In this document: piece after piece, positions 1 through 27,857 of the stretch | Layout: every line of letters begins with the position of its first letter | How positions within the stretch are numbered: position 1 is the first letter of the stretch | Source of the DNA: Gammaproteobacteria bacterium | GTDB taxonomy: Bacteria > Pseudomonadota > Gammaproteobacteria > BMS3Bbin11 | DNA length: 38,148 nt | NCBI GenBank assembly: GCA_013150915.1 | Contig: JAADJE010000074.1 | Location: 1-38,148 of the forward strand | Direction of reading: 5' to 3' | The notes under the pieces: model-generated | Databases searched by the model: none | Told to the model about the DNA's origin: nothing | The model's input: only the letters and a program-made list of their open reading frames with translations | Program-made: the position numbers and the translations under genes

Positions 1-161
1 AACCAGTACTGTTCGATAAATGCAATATGCGCAAGATGCCAGCCTAACGGACTGAGATCAGGGTGGTACTGAATACGTGGTTCATCCACAGAACAGGAGA
101 AAAACTGTTTTATCAGCCGACCATGCAAAGACGATAGTCGATCTGAAAGCACTTTATTCAC
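1..161 (-). CDS. egtB: EgtB, ergothioneine sulfoxide synthase (N-terminal 53 codons, runs off left edge)
   Basis: EgtB is the iron-dependent enzyme that joins trimethylhistidine (hercynine) to a cysteine thiol as a sulfoxide. The frame read leftward from a GTG at 161 stays open to the window edge. It encodes a DinB-type N-terminal segment with YHPDLSPLGWHLAHIAF at about residues 32-48, typical of EgtB; the second His of HLAH is the expected first iron ligand. The catalytic HxHxE and the formylglycine-generating-enzyme-like domain lie outside the window. GTG 161 is chosen because an in-frame TGA lies two codons upstream; a second GTG three codons downstream is possible. The start codon lies inside the 9-bp duplication that flanks a MITE, which now separates this gene from egtC. 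The family assignment rests on a short segment plus the egtC/egtD neighbours. Confidence 0.8.
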   Translation of the reverse strand, partial: MNKVLSDRLSSLHGRLIKQFFSCSVDEPRIQYHPDLSPLGWHLAHIAFIEQYW

Positions 162-165
162 AAAT
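157..165. repeat. MITE copy 1 target-site duplication, left
   Basis: TTCACAAAT, identical to 340-348. On the minus strand it reads ATTTGTGAA and carries the GTG start of egtB. Confidence 0.85.
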
Positions 166-339
166 CACCGCTGTCCCGTTAACCTGATCTTATTTTGCTG
201 TCGTTGTCGTCGTGCTTGGGATGCAGGGAACCCAATGGGGTTGTCATTCCGGCGCAGGCCGGAATCCAGCAGTTTCAAGGACTTACTGGATACCGGGTCA
301 AGCCCGGCATGACGATGTGGCGTTAACGGGACAGCCGTG
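166..339. mobile_element. 174-bp MITE, copy 1 (egtC/egtB junction)
   Basis: The ends are near-perfect inverted repeats of 18 bp: CACCGCTGTCCCGTTAAC on the left and the matching GTTAACGGGACAGCCGTG on the right. A 9-bp direct repeat TTCACAAAT flanks it (157-165 and 340-348), read as a target-site duplication. It has no coding capacity. Inside are two palindromes, TTCCGGC/GCCGGAA (247-264) and CCGGG/CCCGG (293-307). A second copy in opposite orientation lies at 27553-27726 and has the same length. Movement in trans by an IS with similar ends is inferred; an IS4-like 9-bp duplicating element would fit but none is in the window. Confidence 0.9.
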
Positions 340-348
340 TTCACAAAT
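340..348. repeat. MITE copy 1 target-site duplication, right
   Basis: TTCACAAAT, identical to 157-165. On the minus strand it carries the TGA stop codon of egtC. Confidence 0.85.
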
Positions 349-1120
349 GTATTTTTTCCGGCTCATTACAGACATCAAAAATCATTAATGACTGAGCTGC
401 TACTTCTGTCCAGTCATCATCATCTGTCAACGGCTCAGAAGCGACAAGGCTTCCGCCAGGGAAAAGCGGTGGATTTACCGAATAATATAATGAAGGACAG
501 TTACCATTGATTGCACATCGCAAGGCCCAGACTTTTCCGGGTATAGCGATGATAATATTCAATAGACCCCGTTCATCCTTTAACCATCTTTTTAGGCGGG
601 CAACCAGTTCAATCAAAACAGAAGCCGGATCATTACTACCCGTTTCCCACATGATCTGCTTGAATAGGATAAACAGGTGCTCTGAATCGGTATTGCCTTC
701 AATCAAATCTTCAAACTCAGGCTTAAATTCACGCCGCAGACATGACCTTAACGTCCGGGAAAATTGATTTATGTAACCATTGTGCATGAAATGAAACTTT
801 TCATCCGCATAGGGCATAGTATTAGCAAGGTTAATCGGGATATTTGTGGTCGCGCTACGCACTACCGCTACCCACGTTTCAGATTCAAGCCCACGACCTA
901 GCTCTGGAAGGTTCGGGTCCGTCCAGATAGGCATGGTCTGGCGATACCGTAACGGCTTACCAAGCTGATCGAACCAGCCAAAACCGTAACCGTCTGCATT
1001 AAGCCTGGCTTCCATCATTTCTCTTGGTGCCCAGGATTGTTTCACCAAACTATGCTCCGGCTTGAGTAGCAATTCTTCAAGTCGCAGGGCCGGACCGATA
1101 TAAGCTGCAAGTCTGCACAT
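341..1120 (-). CDS. egtC: EgtC-like class II glutamine amidotransferase
   Basis: EgtC removes the gamma-glutamyl group from the sulfoxide made by EgtB when gamma-glutamylcysteine is the sulfur donor. The 259-residue protein begins MCRLAAYIG, placing the Ntn nucleophile Cys at position 2 after Met removal. It also shows the family motifs NADGYGFGWF (about 41-50), a R-S-x-T segment near residue 89, HNGYI (about 113-117) and GNTDSEHLF (about 141-149). Length is normal. It ends in TTG TGA immediately beside the MITE, so its C-terminus is intact. It shares a 75-bp divergent promoter region with egtD. YafJ-type amidotransferases look similar; the egtB and egtD neighbours favour EgtC. Keeping EgtC implies that EgtB here uses gamma-Glu-Cys rather than free cysteine, an inference from the family. 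Confidence 0.88.
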   Translation of the reverse strand: MCRLAAYIGPALRLEELLLKPEHSLVKQSWAPREMMEARLNADGYGFGWFDQLGKPLRYRQTMPIWTDPNLPELGRGLESETWVAVVRSATTNIPINLANTMPYADEKFHFMHNGYINQFSRTLRSCLRREFKPEFEDLIEGNTDSEHLFILFKQIMWETGSNDPASVLIELVARLKRWLKDERGLLNIIIAIPGKVWALRCAINGNCPSLYYSVNPPLFPGGSLVASEPLTDDDDWTEVAAQSLMIFDVCNEPEKIHL

Positions 1121-27465: not shown

Positions 27466-27857
27466 GGGATTTCCTTATCCTCTGTAAGACAGTTAACCGG
27501 CCGCTAACACCGACAAACTACATCAGAATCACAAATTACCCAAATAGATTATCACTGCTGTCCCGTTAACTCCACATCGTCATGCCGGGCTTGACCCGGT
27601 ATCCAGTAAGTCGTTGAAACCGCTGGATACCGGCCTGCGCCGAAATGACGGAGAGATGTTATCGATGGTCATGTCTCCAACACCATTACGACAGCAAAAT
27701 AAGATCAGGTTAACGGGACAGCAGTGATAGATTATAAAGAATAATCAAATACAATACGTCCGAATGAACCCTTAATTACAACCGGGTAATTACTGAATCA
27801 AGACGCGCATGGCACGGCTAATGAATGCTTTGAGATAACAGGTTTATAGAGACGTAC
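27466..27857. other. 392-bp intergenic region between cyclase-like A and B
   Basis: No ORF is supported here. MITE copy 2 takes up 27553-27726; the flanks (27466-27543 and 27736-27857) show no clear terminator or promoter that I can name. Gene B may need its own promoter in this space, or one supplied by the MITE. Confidence 0.6.
27553..27726. mobile_element. 174-bp MITE, copy 2 (between the cyclase-like genes)
   Basis: It is the inverted relative of copy 1, with ends CACTGCTGTCCCGTTAAC and its exact reverse complement. A 9-bp target duplication ATAGATTAT flanks it (27544-27552 and 27727-27735). The outer parts are nearly identical between copies, while about 50 bp in the middle differ. It separates cyclase-like genes A and B. 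Confidence 0.92.

Follow-up and report, generated by a model that had tools for sequence, protein, structure and literature searches.

A miniature transposable element inserted into the egtC-egtB overlap of a gammaproteobacterium, with a possible translational relay between the two genes

A miniature inverted-repeat transposable element (MITE) of 174 bp separates egtC from an egtB-like gene in contig JAADJE010000074.1 of a Gammaproteobacteria bacterium (assembly GCA_013150915.1). The window, by which is meant the whole 38,148-nt stretch of DNA that was analysed, begins at base 1 of this contig (C32); the host genome comprises 2.65 Mb in 122 contigs. It is near certain that the element entered a stop/start overlap of the two genes and that a 9-bp target containing the overlap was copied in the process. 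A small reading frame crosses the element and might serve as a relay that keeps translation of EgtB coupled to that of EgtC. Insertion followed by such a relay is considered the best overall explanation, with roughly even chances of being correct, the relay being the uncertain step.

The insertion and its empty site

The features at the junction, in window coordinates, are as follows.

166..339, no strand assigned: MITE assigned to the IS4 type, 174 bp, without transposase; 18-bp inverted ends with one mismatch
157..165, no strand assigned: first copy of the target duplication, TTCACAAAT; contains the GTG from which egtB now starts
340..348, no strand assigned: second copy of the target duplication; contains the egtC TGA (343-341) and a duplicated GTG (344-342)
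165..344, minus strand: 59-codon candidate relay frame, from the duplicated GTG at 344 across the MITE to a TGA at 167-165
164..170, minus strand: putative ribosome-binding site GGTGATT before GTG 161, complementary to the 3' tail of 16S rRNA; composed partly of the element and partly of the target duplication

The ends of the element are CACCGCTGTCCCGTTAAC and, as the reverse complement, CACGGCTGTCCCGTTAAC, and the flanking 9-mer is exact on both sides. On the minus strand egtC ends in TTG TGA and egtB starts with the GTG at 161-159, the position proposed in an earlier note made from the sequence alone. Deletion in silico of the element and one copy of the 9-mer yielded an overlap of four bases between the egtC TGA and the egtB GTG. 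The whole GTGA overlap lies inside the 9-bp target; the upstream copy retained the stop of egtC and the downstream copy the start of egtB, as the earlier note had proposed. Its identification of the element as a MITE was likewise borne out: the element is short, has terminal inverted repeats, is dispersed (48 matches across the host genome), is bounded by a target site duplication and carries no transposase gene. No match to a protein family was found for its 59-aa frame, nor was there a match to a known RNA family. A promoter for egtB carried by the element was ruled out, no sigma-70-like site being present in 100-1250.

An actual empty site was found in a sister species, G002, whose EgtC is 99% identical to that of the host, with 95% DNA identity across egtC. 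The junction in G002 (CCGGAAAAAATCCATTTATGAATAAAGTACTTA / CCATTTATGAATAAAGTACTTA) has no such element, a single 9-mer (TTCATAAAT, differing from TTCACAAAT at one base) and an ATGA overlap of 4 nt, and no full-length copy of the element family was found in the G002 genome. The G002 junction fixes the state of egtC-egtB before the insertion, which would be later than the split between the two species. The genes are also neighbours in all six congeners (G001-G006). Comparison of relatives, the check proposed in the earlier note, thus recovered the ancestral overlap in G002 but not in G001 or G003-G006, where egtB begins 0-11 nt past the egtC stop. Because these five congeners lack a 4-nt overlap, it is a feature of the host and G002 pair only.

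Possible translation across the element

The element and the additional target copy amount to 174 + 9 = 183 nt. As this is 61 codons, the insertion is in frame, and the duplicated GTG at 344 reads in the frame of egtB through the element. The TGA that ends this relay frame spans the border, its first two bases being the last of the element and its third the start of the target copy; the sequence there is TGA-TTT-GTG, with 3 nt between the relay stop and the start of egtB. The original, weak ribosome-binding site of egtB now lies upstream of the relay frame. Of the six frames that this copy offers, just the one in use is open throughout.

Re-initiation requires an overlap or a very short distance between stop and start and is almost abolished at a distance of approximately 20 nt (PMC10666635). 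For this reason coupling would be expected to be lost across 183 untranslated bases but to persist across 3 nt behind a relay frame. The claim that the insertion removed translational coupling, made in the earlier note, therefore does not hold as a necessary outcome, given an in-frame insert of 183 nt with a 59-codon frame whose stop falls 3 nt short of the egtB GTG.

The predicted RNA fold of the element has a free energy of approximately -75 kcal/mol and places the ribosome-binding site of egtB in the stem formed by the terminal repeats; when the 5' arm was omitted from the fold, the site was largely free. Translation upstream can unfold structure that covers a downstream ribosome-binding site (PMC6728339, PMC12548453). 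The model would favour coupled over free initiation, since the site is buried unless a translating ribosome opens the 5' arm. Taken together, the spacing and the predicted structure are compatible with translational coupling of egtC and egtB.

The sequence of events proposed is that a non-autonomous element with IS4-type (DUF4372 group) ends and a 9-bp duplication transposed into the egtC-egtB stop/start overlap. Ribosomes finishing egtC would re-initiate at the duplicated GTG, as they formerly did at egtB, would open the hairpin of the element while translating the relay frame and would stop at its TGA, whereupon re-initiation at the egtB GTG would be aided by GGTGAT. EgtB would then still be coupled to EgtC, probably less efficiently because two re-initiations are required.

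Several points weigh against a relay. An open frame was present in the relay register in 17% of dinucleotide-shuffled elements, and in other copies the element is traversed by 19 of 126 readings; the frame is not statistically special, at about one in six, and may be luck. Its openness was accordingly dropped as proof of selection. Re-initiation at the relay GTG depends on the weak ancestral ribosome-binding site (-3.5 kcal/mol), and a hairpin as strong as that predicted may block ribosomes or be cleaved by RNase III. Finally, about 58 codons of egtB lie unseen between the window contig, which breaks inside the gene (1-161), and the contig on which the gene resumes (C1), so that its completeness in the host, and with it the view in the earlier note that neither gene was damaged, can be checked for the sequenced parts only.

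A different outcome, which we regard as possible but distinctly less likely, is that the genes are uncoupled and egtB is initiated afresh at GTG 161 by way of GGTGAT, half of which derives from the element end. GGTGATT can pair over 7 bases with the 16S tail, one of the pairs being G-U, at a spacing equivalent to GGAGG plus 6 nt, the tail of the host being taken as the standard one. Pairing was calculated at -9.0 to -9.3 kcal/mol (-9.3 in context) as against -3.5 for the ancestral site, and approximately -5.6 for the usual element ends in the same place. The base that creates GGTG, C169, occurs in only one of 55 other element ends. The suggestion in the earlier note that a GGTGA may replace the ribosome-binding site is plausible on these energies, but the site is paired in the terminal stem of the predicted fold unless that stem is opened, and the relay frame runs over it. 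Both of these observations argue against fresh initiation.

The state of egtB and a second insertion

The sister species has itself received an insertion at the same gene start. A different MITE of 263 bp (L010, G002:C7:51327-51589), with perfect inverted repeats of 31 bp and a TA duplication, lies 15 nt inside egtB; several copies of this MITE are present in G002, and G006 has a single close one. A common origin of the two insertions was ruled out, as their sequences, ends, duplication lengths and positions all differ. Translation from the old egtB start of G002 now gives MNKVLTKPNHD followed by a stop. Ahead of the conserved part of egtB, the sole canonical in-frame start is an ATG in the right repeat of the element (MVRLSIDRLSSLH), which sits 13 nt past the end of a 64-codon frame within the element. 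The expected number of coincidences within 25 bp between the host and G002 was roughly estimated at 0.03-0.06, on the assumption of copy numbers of 40 and 9 and of 300-600 kb in which insertions are tolerated; two insertions so near each other are unusual, not beyond chance. That the spare start codon made the host element a translational relay while, in parallel, the sister species took a new egtB start from a MITE repeat is a tentative reading, with somewhat less than even chances.

The genes concerned, and the divergent gene beside them, are listed below.

341..1120, minus strand: egtC, class II glutamine amidotransferase-like hydrolase; above the TIGR03442 cut-off
3..161, minus strand: egtB-like sulfoxide synthase, first 53 codons; the contig ends here and the gene continues on contig C1
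1196..2206, plus strand: egtD, histidine N-alpha-methyltransferase, divergent; above the TIGR03438 cut-off

EgtC scored 235 bits against TIGR03442 (cut-off 218.65), and its named relatives are metagenome-assembled genomes of Arenicellales/Gammaproteobacteria. The egtB fragment matches EgtB and SenA models weakly because the contig stops at base 1 of the window. On contig C1 the gene resumes at residue 106 (G002 numbering) with 273 further codons, all open. The EgtB-like protein of G002 scored 283 bits for SenA and 273 bits for EgtB, under both cut-offs; its neighbours EgtC and EgtD suggest a role in ergothioneine synthesis.

A further alternative is that the insertion reduces or abolishes expression of egtB, through the hairpin, RNase III cleavage or polarity, and that egtB is drifting. 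The strong predicted hairpin, the second MITE, at the start of this gene in the sister species, and the ratio of non-synonymous to synonymous substitution rates (dN/dS) between the host and G002 (0.25 for the 273-codon part of egtB, exceeding 0.02 for egtC and 0.14 for egtD) all point in this direction. We nevertheless consider it improbable: the sequenced parts of egtB are without a stop codon in both genomes, its dN/dS is far under 1, egtB outpaces egtC also in congeners without insertions, and an in-frame start codon was regained in G002. The open codons on contig C1 and the dN/dS value leave a pseudogene unsupported, and egtB is constrained, perhaps with mild relaxation, to judge from these substitution rates. 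An assembly chimera, in which unrelated flanks were fused through a repeat copy, is extremely improbable in spite of a fragmented assembly in which approximately 10 contigs terminate within element copies, since the same 9-mer stands on each flank and the same gene pair is adjacent in the congeners.

The repeat family, its origin and known systems

The matches in the host genome represent a family of approximately 40 copies, 23 of them two-ended. Flanking 9-mers were compared for the 22 two-ended copies whose flanks are both present, that of the window included: in 16 they agreed at eight or nine of the nine positions (nine exactly), as against one of 462 mismatched pairings used as the control. 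Most of the remaining 21 two-ended copies occupy ordinary spacers; the closest parallel to the egtC-egtB insertion is on contig C85, where a copy has same-strand frames at distances of 15 and 32 bp. The family is nearly private to the host genome, with short or partial matches only in congeners. A second 174-bp copy lies in the window at 27553-27726, with an exact target duplication (ATAGATTAT). At a further locus (L128, G000:C35:43681-43710) two MITE ends are fused with no interior into a perfect 30-bp palindrome without a target duplication.

Among 398 genomes the exact end CACTGCTGTCCCGTTAA was found in only one other, G155. Here an element of 1281 bp (L147) has matching ends, a target duplication agreeing at eight of nine positions and a transposase frame inside, and a 143-bp miniature copy lies between repeated 9-mers ATTTCAACC. 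The frame, of 337 aa, scored 92 bits for DDE_Tnp_1 and 22.9 bits for DUF4372 (cut-off 25), most of the latter N-terminal domain being absent; the 1281-bp copy may itself be broken, with a frame that lacks its N-terminus. We take the DDE_Tnp_1/DUF4372 transposase group to be IS4-type. Because its ends and duplication length match those of the transposase-bearing element in G155, the window element is by sequence classed as a MITE of the IS4-type (DUF4372) group. The host assembly breaks up at repeats; the only trace of such a transposase in it was a broken remnant on contig C23, 57% identical over 69 residues, which has a single degenerate element end close by.

The locus represents a variant on the entry of a MITE into an operon; the insertion is confirmed and its history unusually legible, and the coupling is predicted from models. 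The real empty site shows the entry of a transposon into a four-base gene overlap with both codons left intact, and the locus offers a concrete case for whether an inserted small frame can hand ribosomes from one gene of an operon to the next. The presence of two unrelated elements within 20-25 bases in sister species suggests that such overlaps may be tolerated, not protected, landing sites.

The window element shares its ends (CACTGCTGTCCCGTTAA) and 9-bp duplications with IS4-type (DUF4372 group) insertion sequences, from which it differs in having no transposase and an interior that is a dispersed palindromic repeat. Going by the title of Chen et al. 2008 and the account in a review (PMC10969869), the Chunjie MITE of Geobacter uraniireducens is similar in family size and copy number and belongs to a different element family; according to that review, its insertion disrupted one copy of two phosphate uptake operons. 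Coding MITEs, among them the Rickettsia palindromic elements (PMC2229807, PMC10969869), likewise carry a long open frame that lies in register with genes. These fuse to the host protein, whereas the frame in the window ends in the TGA at the border of element and target and is a separate small frame. Termination-reinitiation at 4-nt overlaps (PMC6728339, PMC10666635) resembles both the ancestral ATGA/GTGA overlap and the 3 nt between relay stop and egtB start; in the window locus, unlike those systems, the intermediary would be an inserted frame.
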